Origin: Siniperca chuatsi
Taxonomy: Eukaryota > Chordata > Actinopteri > Centrarchiformes > Sinipercidae
Reading direction: 5' to 3'
Assembly (NCBI RefSeq): GCF_020085105.1
Contig: NC_058052.1
Location: forward strand, 8,355,733 to 8,419,732
Length of the DNA stretch: 64,000 nt
Within the stretch, counting starts at the first letter, position 1; each line of letters opens with the position of its first letter. Positions 8,101 through 17,713 of this stretch are shown here, piece after piece. Below the pieces are notes generated by a model. It was given only the letters and a program-made list of their open reading frames with translations, did not search any database and was not told where the DNA came from. A program made the position numbers and the translations under genes.

Positions 8101-9741
8101 ACATTGTAGTTGTATGGCATCATGGGACCAGCAGGAACTAACGCTCCACCAGTGGTGGCTGAAGGTGGAGGCGCTTGAATCTGTGTGGGAGGAGGCTGAA
8201 GAGAAAAGAAACTATTTCATTAATGATGATTGCATTTGAGGCATGTAGCTGGTGCTCTTAACACTCATTTCGTTAACTTAATGAGTTAATCAAGTATCTG
8301 ACAAACAAATTCGGTCATTGATTAGCTTATGTATACCTTTGTGAATGTGGGTCCTGACAGCGGGAATGTCTGTGGCGGCGAGCTGAGAGAGTATGGGTTC
8401 TGCTGAGGTGTGTGTGTCGGTGGCAAGACCTCTGGAGCTGGAATATAAGGACTGGCTCTGCTGCTGGTGGGGGTGTGTCGGTACGGGTTATGACTCTGTG
8501 GCTGCATCTGGGGAGGTGGTGGAGTCATTGTGGTGGGGGGAGGAGTGTGACGCCCCACAGGGCTCTGGTAAACTGCACTGCCAAACGCTGGAGGAGCAGG
8601 GTTCATTTGTGATCCTGGAGGTGGTGGTGGAGCCATGCTGACGCTGCTGGGAACAGAAACGGGGCCCGTTGTTGTCGGGGCTGCTGACAGGGCCGGCGGT
8701 GGGCATGGCGACTGGCCGATGGATGCGAATGGGTCGCTGCTGGTTACGGGGCTGGAGAAGTAGTTGAATGTAGAGGGGGCTGGTCCATTCCCGGAGGTCT
8801 GACCTAGAAAGCTGTCTTCTTCTCCAACATCAGTGGAATCATCTAATAAATCAAAAACTTAGTAAAACTTTTACATTTGTAAACAGTAAGCACATTTATT
8901 TGTGATTCTGCAAGGGACATCCAAAACACTTGACACATATAAACACAACAGGCATGTATATATAATAGTAAAGCTGCAGCTAACAATTATTTTCAATGGT
9001 TTAGTCTATGAAATGTCAGAAAACAGAGAAAAATGCCCATCAAACGTATTTAAATGTCTTGTTTTGTAAGACCAAAAGTCTAAAACCCAAAGATATTAAA
9101 TTTATAATGGTACATGGTAACCAATCATTTCAGCTCTCTATAATAGCATATCAAGTTACTCATTACAAGAGACACCTGAGATCAGGGTGCTGTGAAAGTT
9201 AAAATACAGGTCCAGCTCCCAGATTACAGCAAAACACAGCTAATTTTACCAGTAGAGTTTTAAAAAATACTTTGTCAGTTAACTCAGACAGACGGATGTG
9301 GCCAATTTTAAGACTTTACAGAAAAATGTTTTGATAACATGACTCCCAGATGGCTGGACTTCCTCTTCATGTAATAAAAAAAATCAGACAGGGGACAGTC
9401 TGACCAAAACACATCACTGTCTATTAGGCTAACCTGTCTGACAAACGACTGTCAGCTCAGACACACCGTTTCTTTTTTTGTTTCAACTACTTTTACACTA
9501 AATAACAGCTGACAGCAGCACAGGGACCCGGTTGGCTAGCTAGCTGGCTGGCTTAGCCTAGCTAGCCGCTAATGTTTAGACATTTCCTCAAACGGTATTT
9601 CATCTCACCTCCTGACAACACCGCCGGCCCAGTGGCCCGACTCACTGGCATGAAAGGCAAATTGAAGTTAAACTCCGGAGCGGCGCTGAACAGTAAATTT
9701 GCACTGGTGTTGGCAGCATTATTATTTTTTCTATCTGCCAT
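2163..9741 (-). CDS. sec23ip: SEC23-interacting protein (p125), about 15 exons
   Basis: Sec23ip binds Sec23 at ER exit sites and resembles phosphatidic-acid-preferring phospholipase A1. The start ATG at 9739-9741 opens exon 1 (9609-9741, MADRKNNN...). Exon 2 (8337-8842) is the proline-rich Sec23-binding region. Exons at about 7988-8199 and 7655-7852 carry the WWE-like domain ([29 protein letters not shown]). Further exons follow at about 7396-7490, 7185-7305, 6688-6780 and 6455-6591. The exon at 5511-5719 ends in the lipase motif GHSLG, completed in the exon at about 5320-5418. A SAM domain spans about 4911-5080 and 4529-4622 ([20 protein letters not shown]). The DDHD domain spans about 4256-4436, 4017-4171, 3583-3689, 2800-2982 and 2559-2721. 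The last exon, 2163-2244, ends at a TAA with [13 protein letters not shown]. All junctions I checked are GT-AG and keep frame, so the gene looks intact. A LINE sits just upstream of the start. Confidence 0.95.
9532..9570. repeat. GCTAGC/TAGCC-rich palindromic run in sec23ip intron 1
   Basis: A dense cluster of GCTAGC, GGCTAGCTAG and GCTAATG words lies about 40 bp beyond the donor of sec23ip exon 1. Similar runs occur near the 5' ends of mcmbp, inpp5f, bag3 and tial1 in this window. Confidence 0.6.
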
Positions 9742-9779
9742 TTTCCCCTAGAATTACACGTAGCCACTACCGGTGCAGC

Positions 9780-9792
9780 CAGGCAGTAACCT
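9780..9792. repeat. Target-site duplication, copy next to sec23ip
   Basis: CAGGCAGTAACCT here is identical to 13305-13317. The two 13-mers exactly flank the minus-strand LINE, as expected after target-primed reverse transcription. Confidence 0.85.
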
Positions 9793-10236
9793 CCTCCTCC
9801 TCCTTCTTCTTCTTCGTTATTGCGTTTTATGGCGAGTGGCAACCAGCGTTAAGGTGCATTACCGCCACCTACTATGTTGGAGAGTGGACCAGAGTTATCT
9901 ATCCCCTTATTCAAACAACTAAACTAAACAAAAAAACATTTCACAGCCCAGTTTCTTTCAAATAATGGAACAGCCTCTCTAACCCAATGTCAAGTACATT
10001 TTTTTAGACTCATTTCTTCCACTCCAAGCTTCCTGATTTCCCTCTTTAATGTTTCTAGTGCTGGAGAGTACTTTGGGCAGTGAAGACTTACATGCTCCAC
10101 TGATTCCTCTATTTGACAGTGCTCACACAATCCTGAGGGATGTTTGTTTATTAAGTCTGCTATGTCCTACCCTCAGCCTTGTCAAGATGTTCTCCTCTTT
10201 GGTGCTCCTTTGAGCTGCCCTCACTGTGCCCACCGC

Positions 10237-10821
10237 TTAAAAGTGTCGGCCTGTGTTTCCTGTATCCCAGCTGTGCTGCCACTCTTTAATGATGTTTCTT
10301 TTGATTAATCCCTTTGCTTCGGATTTACTGAGTGAGCTGTCCGTGATCTCCTCATGCTTCAGAGCCTGTTTTGCTAACGTGTCCACACTTGCATTGCCCT
10401 GAATCCCTCTGTGAGCTGGTATCCACATAAATGTGATCAAAATATTCATATTTTGAAATCTGTACAGCGTTTCATATATCTCATTAACTATATCCTGCCT
10501 ACTGTGAGATGTAAATGACTGCAATGACATTAGTGCAGAACATGAATCTGTACAAAGAATAACCTTTCTTATTTGTAACTCTTCTACCCACTGTAGTGCT
10601 GTTGCAACTGCTAACATCTCGACTGCATATACAGATAAATGATCCGAAGTCCTTCTTTTAACAGAAACGTGTAAGGCTGGTATACTAAAAGCAAAACCTG
10701 TGCTGCCTATATTAGGATCCTTGGATCCATCAGTGTATACTGGGACAAATGTTTGAGATAATGTTTGTAACCTATCTTCAACCAAGATTGCAATATTTCC
10801 AAAACCTTTATGAACCTGCAT
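10237..10821 (-). pseudogene. RNase H domain of the LINE (fragment)
   Basis: This open frame of 194 codons has RNase H-like motifs in order: TDGS, an E-containing helix (YAVEMLAVATAL), a second TDS, and HRGIQGNASVDTLAKQA. It is the longest surviving piece of the LINE polyprotein. It has no start of its own and is separated by frameshifts from the RT pieces upstream, so it is not an independent gene. Confidence 0.85.
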
Positions 10822-12773
10822 TTTTTATATCTAGAATATAGAAATCAACTGACACTGAGGGAAACATCCAGGGTGCTGTTACTGGTAACGGTACTGTAGG
10901 GATATATCTTTTCTGACTTAATGTCATGTCTCTAGCTACTTTCTCACAGCTCCATGCAAAACAGTCCCTCTGTTGTTGGATGTCTATCTTCAGAATGGCC
11001 TTGAAGATTTGCCCAGTAGTTCATCATTAACTGTTTACGTCGAATATGCAGCGGCATTTCACCCACCTCAACCTGAAGAGCAGACACAGGACTTGTTTTG
11101 ACAGCACCACAACAAAGTCTCAAAGCTTGAGCTTGTACCACCTCCAACTTCTTTAATCACGTTTTTGCTGCTGACCCATAAGCAATATTGATCTAATCAG
11201 CGCTAGATACAAGTTTTTTATTGCAGATCTGCTCGCTCCCCATTCTGACCCTGTTAAACATCTCATCACATTTCCCCTTTTCCACAAGGCTCTGTCATCA
11301 GCAAACAATGGCTGTCCAATATCGCCCTGAACTTGAGAAAAAACATCATTTATCATAATGGAAAGAGACTGCCCTGAGGAGTACCATTATCTACCATATA
11401 TCTTCCAGATAAAGCTGTCCCAATTCTAATTTGTATAAATCTATCAAATAAAAAGTCTTTAATCTAATTATACGTTCTACATGCTATTCCTATCATATTT
11501 AATCATTAACCCCCCCTTCCAAACCATATCATATGCCTTTTCTACGTCAAAGAAAACTGCCATTACAGATTCTTTATTAACTTGTGCTTTCCTAATCTGT
11601 TTCCAGGCACACAGCAGGGTCCATGGTTCCTCTACTCCTCCTAAATCCACTTTGATGAGGTGATAAGATTCCTCTGCTTTCCATGTAAAATTCCATGTCA
11701 TAGATGTTAGTCTTTCTGTAATCATTCTTTCCATTATCTTTCCTATATGTGACGTCAATGCTATTGGCCTATAGTTCATTGGACTTGATGGGTCCAGGGA
11801 AGGGATTCACTGCTTCTTTCCAGCCAGTTGGTAATTTTCCCACAACAACTTCATAGATGCTAAAACACTTAAATGCTTTAACATTATGTAGCAGATTTCA
11901 TCCTTTGTCCTTTATCCTTCTGCTGTTTCCTCCCCCATCTTCAGTACTGGATACTGCCATTCCCTTCTGACTCCTCTCATGCTCCTAATCGTGTTCCAAA
12001 CAGTTTTCTAACAAAAAAATCTGCCAGCTTTGCCTTTTTGCTTTACGTATAACTTTCCTAACCTTTGCTTGTGGCTGCTTACATTTAATTAAATTCTGAA
12101 ATTCTTTACCACACTCATCTGCCCACCAGGGGACTGCCTTTCTCTTTAGAAAGAAACTGACTTATTGGCAACTTCTAGTAATGTTGTTTTAAATGTTTTT
12201 TTTTTATCAATCTCCTCCATATCTTCATTTAAGTCTATTTTATCCATTTCTATCTCACATATATATTTAAACATTTCCCATTTTGCACTGCTAAATACCC
12301 ACTTCCCCAATATTTCCCCTTATTTCTTAGTAATAATACACTACACCACACTGGAAAATGATCACTGCCTACTGATGTTTCTTCTAATAGATCCCACTCA
12401 CATGCCCCCACTAAATGTCTAGATTCTCTATCCCTCTCCCATGATTTAAACAAACCATGTTCTTTTCTTCTAGCAGTTCTTCAATTACCACACCATTTGC
12501 ATCTGTTCTTATTCCTCCGCATAACGTGCTATGTGCATTAAAGTCCCCACATACCAACACCCTATTACCATCCAGCCCTTCAATTTGTGTTAATCTACTC
12601 AAATCTAGTTTCCTAATTAATAATTACAAACTCTCACTTGTCCATATCTCTACGTTACGTATCCTTGCTCATTTTTCTCTATACTAACCTCTCTAAATGA
12701 AATATCATCTCTAATGAATATTGCGGCAACAAATTTGTAGCATTCCATTGTAGCAGGAGGGCCATTATTAGTA

Positions 12774-13301
12774 CTATCCAACCCATGCTTGCTCCTGGCT
12801 TGCTTGACTACTGAGCTCATTCCTCACCTCCTCCCATGTCAGCCCGCTGATATCTAGGTGATGAGCTGCTGCCTTTACGGTTATTTGTATTCTCTCTGTT
12901 TTGGATTGAACCTCCATTGTTGCATTTACTATCCCTGCTATAAAAGTGACTAGCTTCTTTAAATCAACCACTAATACTCCCTCTTTTGTCTGGTCTGGTT
13001 CTTTTGTGCGTTGTTTTCCTGCTCTGCTTCTTTCATCAATTCCTCCGCTCTGATTCACCATCGTCACTGCCTCTGCATGTGTGATCTTATTCTGAGCTCT
13101 TACCTGCTGTACTTCCATTTCCCTTTTGATCACTTTACATCCCCCATAAGCCACACTGTGATTTCCACCACAGTTACAAGTTTTAGGTTGTTCATGATTA
13201 CCCTGCCCATACGCGAGATCTTCTCCACATCTGGCACATCTTCTTCTGCCTTTACATGTCTTTGCTGTATGACCAAACCTTTGACAGTTGTAACACCTCA
13301 C
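12774..13301 (-). pseudogene. Gag-like zinc-knuckle C-terminus of the LINE ORF1 (fragment)
   Basis: The frame begins abruptly at the 5' truncation point of the LINE with RCYNCQRFGHTAKTC, a CX2CX4HX4C knuckle. A second cysteine-rich stretch follows (CARCGEDL...CNCGGNHS). The remaining residues are a charged tail. Nucleic-acid binding for the retrotransposon particle is the family role; this copy lacks its N-terminus. Confidence 0.8.
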
Positions 13302-13304
13302 TGG

Positions 13305-13317
13305 CAGGCAGTAACCT
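13305..13317. repeat. Target-site duplication, distal copy
   Basis: CAGGCAGTAACCT is identical to 9780-9792. It marks the 5' (truncated) junction of the minus-strand LINE. Sequence to its right is the original flank of sec23ip. Confidence 0.85.
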
Positions 13318-13455
13318 ACACGCTCAGTTCTCCAAATAGATGAGAGCAGGCATACGTCACTTTCCTGTCTTCAGAACGACCACGCCTCTTTTTGGGTGAA
13401 AACAAGCGCTGTAAAAGTGCCATGCCAGCGCCAAATTGAAAAAACTAGTGGCACC

Positions 13456-13631
13456 ATGCCTAAAAGCTGCTGCGTCGCATTTTGCACGTCAAACAAAACC
13501 CAGTTTACAGTTTAAGGACAATAAAAGAAGAGAGTTGTGGCTTCGTGCCATCCACAGAGAAGATGAAAATGGTAAACTGTAGAAACCGGCCATTCAATAC
13601 GTGTACCTCTGTGGCAAACACTTCATCACAG
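13456..13631 (+). pseudogene. Broken THAP-domain exon
   Basis: From ATG 13456 the frame reads MPKSCCVAFCTSNKT, the N-terminal C2 half of a THAP C2CH zinc finger. It then hits a stop and shifts frame. The second frame gives RRELWLRAIHREDENGKL, a stop where THAP proteins usually have W, then KPAIQYVYLCGKHFITG, followed by GTTAGT, a plausible splice donor. So C..C, the tryptophan helix and C..H are all recognisable, but at least one frameshift and one nonsense change are present. THAP domains are DNA-binding modules found in host genes and in P-element-like transposases. No transposase body or downstream exon is visible, so the source is unclear. Confidence 0.7.
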
Positions 13632-14800
13632 GTTAGTTAATGTTGTTACTGAGCAAATGCCATGTGTGCCGATTGTGCCTGTAGATCGAAGTGAATCAGA
13701 AAAGAGTCTTAGTGATGGTGTGAGTAAAGTTTTTACTGTGAAAAAAAATGGCCCTACCATAAAACACATGCTTTTAGAATGGAGTTTGGTTCAACAGTAT
13801 GTCCACTCGAAAGACCGGTGAGCAGATGGTATTTTAACGTTAATAATTAACATAAATTGAGCTGACCTAAGTTCTAATAATGACCCTTGTAGGAAATGGG
13901 GCTAAAACCGTCCCGTTTTCTACTTGACGGCTCATAGTTAATGGTCACGTAATAAGCACAAACGGCTATCAAAACAGAGACAGCGGTTTACAGTAACTTC
14001 ATATTGGACAGACTACCAAAATACCAAACAATAAAGTGTCTTAACGACATAAGAAGTGACACATTTCAGAAATACATTACCTGGAGATTCAATACGCTAT
14101 GCCAGGTTAGTCCACTTGGTTCGTTTCACTGAAAGGACACTCATCAACACCTATTTCTTTATTTTTGTCTATATAACGACGCCGATTACCGTTGATCGGC
14201 AGCGATATAACATAATTGTTTGCCTGACTGGCCATAGGATTTGGGCTCCTAATAGCTAAAAAACCAATACAGTATTCTTATTTTATTGACAAAGACCTCG
14301 TTATTTGCATTTACCGCCAGTCAAATTAGAAGGGCTGCTTTCACCCAAAAGGGGACGGAGCCTGGGGCAAAGTACCCGGATGCGCTGTTCTCATCTCTTC
14401 CCTGCCCTCACAGATTTTAATGATCTCTAAAGCATCAACAGTAGCTTGACAGACGGCGACGCAGCCCCACACATTGTTTATAGATCTGCTAAAACCACGC
14501 AGGTCATTTGACCGCAGTTCGTTGGTTGTAGGAAAAACAAACACTCTCTCTCACTACTGCCTCCTACAGGCCAAACAGATTACTTACACTGTGACATTGT
14601 ATCCTTTCAAATGAGCTAAAATAAGAAAACGCAATCTAAAATGAAGAGTAATTTTATTAAAAGTATGCATGCTTTTTCTCCTCACTAGACCACCAACCTC
14701 AAACCAAAACACCCAGCCCGTTGAAGTACAGTAAGTAAGTCAGTGTGATAGCTCCGTGCTCCGGCTCGTCTCTGTATGCAAAACAAACGAACAACGCTTC
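13632..14800. other. Intergenic sequence, sec23ip/mcmbp
   Basis: No gene is supported here. The notable item is a 12-bp inverted repeat: TTTTGGGTGAAA at 13390-13401 and TTTCACCCAAAA at 14339-14350. It brackets the THAP remnant and could be a trace of transposon termini. The remainder is unique-looking, moderately AT-rich sequence. Confidence 0.4.
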
Positions 14801-14804
14801 TTCG

Positions 14805-14856
14805 ATTGGTGACGCAAATTTCCCGCCCTCACTTCTGCAATCCGGTGTGCGCGAAA
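14805..14856 (+). promoter_or_regulatory. mcmbp: Putative mcmbp core promoter with two E2F sites and a CCAAT box
   Basis: Within 130 bp of the mcmbp ATG there is an inverted CCAAT box (ATTGG, 14805-14809). There are also two sequences matching the E2F consensus: TTTCCCGC at 14819-14826 (+) and TTTCGCGC on the minus strand at 14849-14856. E2F control is usual for DNA-replication genes, which fits mcmbp. The sites are read directly; their use is inferred. Confidence 0.6.
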
Positions 14857-14933
14857 GTTAACAAAATAGTGTTTTCACTGAGATTTTACTTTGATATATT
14901 TTATATTCTTCGGACGTTTGTCACTGGCCAATA

Positions 14934-17713
14934 ATGGCTTCCACACATGACTGGATTAACAACCCTCTCGGTGTTGTTGAAGGGATGTTTGGTAAGAGAT
15001 ACACCGGAACTTCACTCCTTGACAGCTAACGTTAACGCGTGAACTTAGCTAGTTAGCTGTATGGCAGCAGGGGTATGCTAACTACCGTGCTCACCACATG
15101 TAGCTGTGCTTTTTTCCGTCCTTCCGAAACAGCAAGTAACTTAATGAAGTTTCTGCGGGTTGTAGTACCAGCGCTGCTTTGTTGCAGCCTGCACCAACAC
15201 CATTTCCGCTTTTAGTTATAAGAAGAAGTGCCGGGTCCCGGGTGTGCAGTTTGATCTGAAGACCTGTGTGTACACATGCAAACTGAAAATCCACAACATG
15301 GGGCATTCACGTCATAGGTCATTAAAGTGTCTCAAAGTCGTTTAAAATTGACTGAACTTCTTTGAATGCACTGAATTGAGGTGGATATAAATATATGTAG
15401 CATTTATGCCCTAAACGGCTTCAGAGGTTGTGAAATGTTTTACCATTTCTTTGTCACGATATGAAGGACTATTAGTCCAGCTCCTTTTATCCACCAGTGA
15501 AAAGAGCTGGTACCTGACACTGATCATTATTTAACAAACACATAGTTCCATCCTCAAAAGCAGTAATCTTTGCTCGAGGATGCACAGATATGTTCTGTAA
15601 AAGTCATCATTATAAAGTATTTTATGAATAAAGTCGACAATTTTATTTATTTATATATATATATGAGTCAGTTGCAGGGTCAAACTGATTTAAGGTGAGC
15701 AACACTTAAAGTAAATGTTTCTTCATTGTTTGAAATTCTTCACACCACCACAGCACACCATGCTTACTCAGTGACCATTGTTGCTAAATGAGACAATCTA
15801 ATTTATTTGATAATCTAATCACTGGTATTCTCAAAGCCAGTGTTTTCTGTTATTATACTGACTATGTTTCTATTACTTTAAATGATAAATAACATTATGC
15901 TCTTGTTGATATTTTAGCTGCTTCCCAGAACAATCCAAACTCTGGATGGCAGGCGAAAGCGGTTGAATTCTTTAAAGATCAGCTGAAAGAGAAGAGCGCT
16001 CATACCGGGGTAATGCAGCTCTGGGATCTTTTCAGCATGTAAATTCCACAGCGATGCAAAAGATGCCTGTAAACCTCAATGGCTTGTAAATGTCAACCAC
16101 TTCCATTTTGGTTCAGGTCCCTTCTTTGAACGATGTCCCTCTGCACTACCTGAAGCCCAACAGCCTGGTGAAGTTTCGCTGCTTAATCCAAGACATGTTC
16201 GATCCAGAGTTCTACATGGGAGTGTATGAGACTGTTGATCCGTCTACAAAGGCTAAAGTAAGTGCTTCCTTGTCCTCTCCTGTGCAGCTCTTTGCATTCA
16301 ATTGAGCAAGCAAGTACAGCCCTCTCATGTGTCCAGTGCGTGTGTTTTGCATTTGATGCGGTGTTAGATGTCATCATATTTATTGTCTTATTTTACTATC
16401 TGACTATCCCAGGTGTTGCGATGTGGGAAGTACAAAGATGTGACAGAATGCGGGGTAAGTCTGCCTCTGCTTAATCACTCAAGAGATCCATAAATACCTC
16501 AATTCAGCTTCAGATTTGCTAACACGTGTTTATCTCCAGGTGGATTTTAACTCCAGAAACACTGTGACTGCAGAGAGACAGACTTTCTACTGTGTGCCAA
16601 TCCCTGGAGAAAATCCCTGGGTGAAAGAGATATCCTCATCTTGTCCAGATAATGCCATACCTATCTGATGGACATGCTCCTCAAACAGGATTTGATCATG
16701 TGTTCTTCGCTGCACCCAACTTGTGTCGGAAGTATTTTTGAATACTGCTCCCTAGTTTTCCTTAATTCTGTCGCACAGCTACGCCGGCTCTAGCCAAGCA
16801 AGAGTAGTTCCGTCCACCTCGTATGCGCCGACCAGACAGAAACGTAGCTACGAGGAAGACGACGACATGGACACACAGCCGCAGAAGCAGAGGGAGCCAC
16901 ATACTGGTATGAGCTGCTGTTTAAGTGATGATGGACTAATGTGTAGCTGAATGGTAAAGCATTGTCCAAAGTGTATTAATAGACACAAGTCTTATATTTT
17001 GTCTTGTTCCCATGACGGTTTTTCCAGTTATTATGGAAATGTAGGAAACCGCTAACTGTAATAGGTGTACAGGCAGGTTGAGAGAAAGTTGGTACACCAG
17101 AGAAGTAAATTATTACACACCTGAAATGTATTTGACATCATAGGTTATCTAACAATAAAAATCCATACAAGGGTGGATTTTTGCCACAAATGCTGACTGC
17201 TCCCTCTCTCGCTGCAGGTCCTCAAAGTCCCACAGAACAGCACAGCAATGGTGACTGTAAGCGGCAGGAGACAGAAGCTCCTTCCAGCCAGACTGCATCT
17301 GCCTCCCATCTCGACCTTAACTTCCCCCTACCGGGAGAGAAAGGCCCCTCCTGCCTAGTCAAGGTGTGTTATGTCTCTTAACATTGGGTTTTGGTACCTT
17401 TTCTCTTATCACCTCATTTTCATTGCTGTAACCTGGACTCTTGACACAGTTATTGGTGGATAATTTATCTCATGTCAGACGTTTGTTCTAAGAGGTGATT
17501 CCAGAGATGATACCACCATTATCAGCAGACTTTCCGAGTGTAGAACAGAAGCTAAAAGGTGTGTGTTGTTGGCAGGTGTACGAGGACTGGGACAGCTTCA
17601 AACTGAACGACACACTAGAGGTCTACGGGATCCTCTCTGTCAGTCCGGCTCTCAGTGCTCTGGCTGACGAGAAGTAAGACACATCATTGAGTTGAATTTC
17701 CCTCTGGTGGTGA

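Follow-up and report, generated by a model that had tools for sequence, protein, structure and literature searches.

LINEs of the Nimb type are known from teleosts (PMC9004415), and for one of them, Nimb-2_DR, the joining of zebrafish inserts to their targets has been described: about 70% carry duplications of 10 to 15 bp, with a peak at 12 to 13 bp in cells, and 95% of the 5'-truncated inserts are joined by microhomology or extra bases (PMC4245944). Bidirectional promoters are a second described system, and their fraction is given as falling from 25% in amphioxus (3,950/15,884) to 12.83% in the mouse and to 7.84% in the zebrafish (PMC6292497). For genes with a TISU element, leaders are reported to measure 12 nt at the median (PMC2518114). 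In camel, one study assigns SEC23IP, MCMBP, and INPP5F to the same locus (PMC9104199).

In the 64-kb stretch of DNA analyzed here (the window), sec23ip and mcmbp lie head-to-head, with the start codon of sec23ip on the minus strand (9739-9741, ATG 9741) and the first exon of mcmbp on the plus strand (14934-14991, ATG 14934), the end of this exon being placed by eye from its translation. Downstream of the sec23ip start on the same strand, three of the six pieces tried matched WWE, SAM (below cut-off), or DDHD, and the N-terminal piece 8322-8636 gave no Pfam match. DDHD2 carries the same three domains, and the name sec23ip draws on these domains together with a resemblance of the N terminus and synteny. 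For mcmbp, MCM_bind (PF09739) was found in later exons, in three of the five exon pieces, the two misses being 31 residues each; the translated piece of the first exon had no Pfam match. The order of SEC23IP and MCMBP is presumably head-to-head in human as well.

The two start codons are now separated by 5,192 bp. Subtracting a LINE together with one copy of its target-site duplication (3,525 bp) leaves 1,667 bp, and subtracting a second repeat-like block at 13335-14399 (1,065 bp) leaves ∼602 bp, so that by arithmetic the gap was stretched from ∼0.6 kb to 5.2 kb by the two together. We read the locus as a truncated LINE that inserted in a gap shared by the two genes, leaving the promoter-like words with mcmbp and sec23ip with a short leader, and we give this account as a whole a probability of about 0.72.

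The LINE occupies 3,512 bp on the minus strand (9793-13304), in the same sense as sec23ip. Along that strand we found the zinc-knuckle end of ORF1 (CCHC; 12774-13301; PF00098, E 0.0027, with 18.2 bits, which is below the Pfam cut-off of 20.8), an APE-like endonuclease (12411-12602; PF14529, E 4.7e-08, above the cut-off), a piece of the reverse transcriptase (11477-11779; PF00078, E 5.2e-07, its 30 bits just exceeding the cut-off of 29.6), and the RNase H piece of ORF2 (10237-10821; PF00075, E 3e-16), with RNase H lying 3' of the reverse transcriptase. This domain order defines the I group, and the element, with its reverse transcriptase, APE-like endonuclease, RNase H, and target-site duplication, is an I-group non-LTR retrotransposon. 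It is decayed, its reading frames being broken into short ORFs, and its spacing suggests internal losses near 11274 (compared with the copies at loci L060 and L067) and near 11900 (compared with L064 and L067).

The 5' limit of the element was taken from the starts of other genomic copies, using a query that included 34 bases beyond 13304. Matches began at query base 34-36 (13305-13303 in the window) in 21 of the 48 non-self rows, and none began before base 31 (13308). Copies on contigs C23 and C13 have a further ∼0.75 kb in common upstream of this limit, at 80% identity to each other, so the copy described here is truncated at its 5' end inside ORF1. An earlier note on this DNA had already called the element a 5'-truncated I/Nimb-like LINE, and it was right on both the truncation and the I group.

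At the other end, a conserved 3' end (9808-9876, minus strand) leads into a tail at 9793-9815 that is made of (GAA)n and then (GGA)n. As the same note had said, this purine-rich stretch is what sec23ip now has immediately upstream, and it lies in sense orientation to the gene. The change to (GGA)n lies beside the target; the tails printed for other copies are mainly (GAA)n, with a short GGA step in those of L067 and L030 as well. The conserved end also occurs inside a dispersed repeat of ∼220-300 bp (L033-L038, centered on locus positions 1501-1570), which contains ∼69 bp of it and has common sequence on both sides of this part, L033 matching all five of the others tried. This repeat may be a SINE or MITE into which the end of the LINE was taken up.

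A genome search with the 3' kilobase of the LINE gave at least 48 matching rows including itself, a lower bound because scoring covered 40 of the 341 first-look candidates, and the top identity was 91% among the listed non-self rows longer than 100 bases. Substitution-only distances, calculated over pairs of at least 400 bases with CpG positions left out, were ∼0.094 between this copy and the others and 0.125 among the others. In a maximum-likelihood tree of 10 of the 17 gathered copies (9793-11300), the terminal branch was 0.038 for this copy and 0.053-0.079 for the ten others. The element is therefore old, yet no other copy in the tree is as little diverged as the one upstream of sec23ip. 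A related LINE family, ∼66% identical to this element in the ORF1 region, was seen at L065 and L066; its two copies there agree at 96% of positions over 860 bp, which indicates that their family probably moved more recently.

The exact 13-bp duplication that had been claimed to bracket the LINE was confirmed. The 13-mer CAGGCAGTAACCT is found at 9780-9792 (the proximal copy, reading AGGTTACTGCCTG in the sense of the element) and at 13305-13317 (the distal copy), both assigned to the minus strand with the element, and it has no other exact match in the window, where the third match carries two mismatches. The whole genome (719 Mb in 65 contigs) contains 21 exact matches to it when both strands are counted; a reversed control has 7, and the arithmetic expectation for any 13-mer in 719 Mb is ∼21. 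Since the count is close to chance, the word itself is ordinary and it is its position that carries weight. A repeat search and an abutment script put the distance between the repeat and the mapped 5' limit of the LINE at 0, and on the 3' side the conserved family end and the (GAA)n tail, as in other copies, run to 9792. We therefore consider the repeat a real target-site duplication, because it abuts ends of the element that were mapped independently from other genomic copies.

That the two 13-mers are a chance repeat is hardly credible to us given this double abutment, even though the 21 genomic copies would allow it. The shuffles speak in the same direction, as a 13-mer match to the 60 nt downstream arose in only 7 of 2,000 trials in which the 4,633 bases upstream were shuffled by mononucleotide, with abutment not even required. 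Two further observations lean toward chance. By eye, the ends of the duplication are ambiguous, since its first three bases, AGG in element sense, could belong to the tail and its last G to the element, which leaves an unambiguous core of 9 bp. The same script also found an abutting repeat of at least 9 bp at the 5' homology start in 0 of 19 other loci, a comparison in which the 5' starts were often mere alignment ends, the flanks examined were short, and repeats resembling the tail had been removed; moreover, a different short repeat accounts for six of the 19 loci. We also considered, and dropped, a tension between the decay of the LINE and the perfection of its duplication: with a branch of 0.038, the chance of 13 + 13 bp remaining unchanged is ∼0.37 by arithmetic.

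The tail and the orientation of the insertion fit target-primed reverse transcription, and it is most likely by this route that the LINE inserted, in the sense of sec23ip, 38 bp upstream of the ATG. The target end CCT could have paired with an AGG of the tail, and slippage at the start of synthesis may have added the (GGA)n that separates the target from the (GAA)n tail. The element landed in the short gap between sec23ip and mcmbp already truncated at its 5' end, and the 13-bp duplication was made on insertion.

The repeat begins 38 nt upstream of the sec23ip ATG and the LINE 51 nt upstream of it, a small correction to the earlier figure of about 40 bp for the 3' junction. We regard these 38 nt (9742-9779, minus strand) as a putative remnant of the original leader or promoter. 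In-frame TAA and TAG within the 51 nt keep LINE codons out of the protein, and an upstream ORF that starts at 9859 stops ahead of the ATG. In the motif scan, a YY1-like word, AAAATGGC, runs from 9744 over the start codon. A full TISU element at a start codon reads SAASATGGCGGC; the sequence here, GAAAATGGCAGA, agrees by eye with this consensus at 9 of 12 positions, and we set TISU aside as a partial match. A genome search with 9480-9800 for a retrogene that would have kept the sec23ip leader returned one match, the locus itself, and thus no fossil transcript.

The scan, a search for ten motif words in which chance matches may be included, placed a cluster of NFY-, CRE-, E2F-, and SP1-like words next to mcmbp (14805-14856). 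TATAAA is present on the minus strand at 14905 and 14482, and these two words may point to a start on the mcmbp side that is older or that remains in use. The observed/expected CpG ratio, taken in 200-bp intervals, was 0.94-1.23 near mcmbp (14600 to 14999) and 0.62-0.67 near sec23ip (9500 to 9999), the latter falling between the 75th and 90th percentiles of the window, whose median was 0.32. In the body of the LINE (intervals starting at 9900-13100) it ranged from 0 to 0.86 and was ≤0.5 in 29 of 33 intervals. Part of the sec23ip-side signal (9800-9999) is LINE sequence and is CpG-rich by descent.

With the promoter-like words, both TATAAA words, and the strongest CpG signal all lying beside mcmbp, sec23ip might still be driven from that side, with the LINE sitting in its first intron and being spliced out. 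We consider this quite unlikely. One moderate acceptor is present inside the LINE, at 9918, but its use would leave the upstream ORF at 9859 in the mRNA; the junction beside the ATG is purine rich rather than a pyrimidine tract; and the minus strand of 13305-14934 has no donor of strict consensus, the one kind that was scored.

The 3' end of the LINE, being the immediate upstream sequence of sec23ip, could instead have become its promoter. Such a start would overlap with the one we prefer, but the LINE sequence would be necessary to it, and we judge this unlikely. There is a CCAAT word at 9984 inside the LINE, but the last ∼190 bp of the element contain none of the ten scanned words. The four family CpG sites of 9793-9900 are all kept here, but other copies also keep most of them (40 of 51 cells), and CpG retention was dropped as a promoter footprint because it does not discriminate.

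We prefer a short leader drawn from the residual sequence, with transcription of sec23ip most likely starting in the 51 bp that are left to it or in the final ∼100 bp of the LINE. Where the earlier note had offered three options, a start in the LINE end, a very short leader, or a LINE spliced out of the transcript, the first two fit best and the third is weakly supported. We therefore place a short leader that draws on residual sequence, whether or not the LINE end contributes, ahead of a LINE-end promoter alone, and the latter ahead of a spliced-out LINE.

The idea that the insertion displaced the sec23ip promoter is incomplete. What was displaced was probably the short gap shared with mcmbp rather than a private promoter, and to the displacement of 3.5 kb first proposed the second repeat-like block adds ∼1 kb. 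This block (13335-14399) has inverted ends that are imperfect (∼65-110 bp with gaps) and, by eye, THAP-like codons, and from its sequence it is probably the remnant of a DNA transposon. A 22-residue piece of it had no Pfam match, and the block itself had no match in the other loci examined or in the rest of the window. Its CpG ratio is high, up to 1.14, and it also holds a few promoter-like words.

The two genes may once have had a single bidirectional promoter in common, of which the cluster of promoter-like words would have stayed on the mcmbp side. We put forward, as a speculation of low probability, that the LINE split this promoter and uncoupled the regulation of the two genes, and that sec23ip rebuilt a minimal promoter from the 51 bp and the 3' end of the LINE. 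The partners differ in function, mcmbp being the gene of a DNA-replication factor and sec23ip a gene of the secretory pathway.

LINE insertions near genes are common, and the loss of bidirectional promoters in vertebrates has already been described; the insertion is of an ordinary kind in an informative place. Judged by titles and the beginnings of abstracts, we found no description of the sec23ip/mcmbp case among the papers listed. Its value lies in being a clean case that could be dated by comparison of species. If confirmed, it would provide a natural experiment in the break-up of a shared promoter, in which the co-expression of mcmbp and sec23ip can be compared between species with and without the insertion, and it would show how little upstream sequence a gene like sec23ip can live with.

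Among the described systems, the short-leader genes with TISU resemble sec23ip in the ATGGC at the start codon, the YY1-like site, and a very short possible leader, although the match of sec23ip is only partial (PMC2518114). Nimb LINEs such as Nimb-2_DR share the layout of ORF1 and ORF2 and the frequent 5' truncation, and the 13-bp duplication with a possible 1-bp overlap fits the Nimb pattern (PMC4245944). The copy upstream of sec23ip is, however, decayed and truncated, and it is likened to Nimb by layout and duplication length. The disentangled bidirectional promoters of vertebrates offer the third likeness, that of head-to-head genes whose shared promoter was pulled apart; for these, a link to rounds of genome duplication is suggested (PMC6292497), whereas the cause that we propose for sec23ip and mcmbp is the insertion of a transposon.
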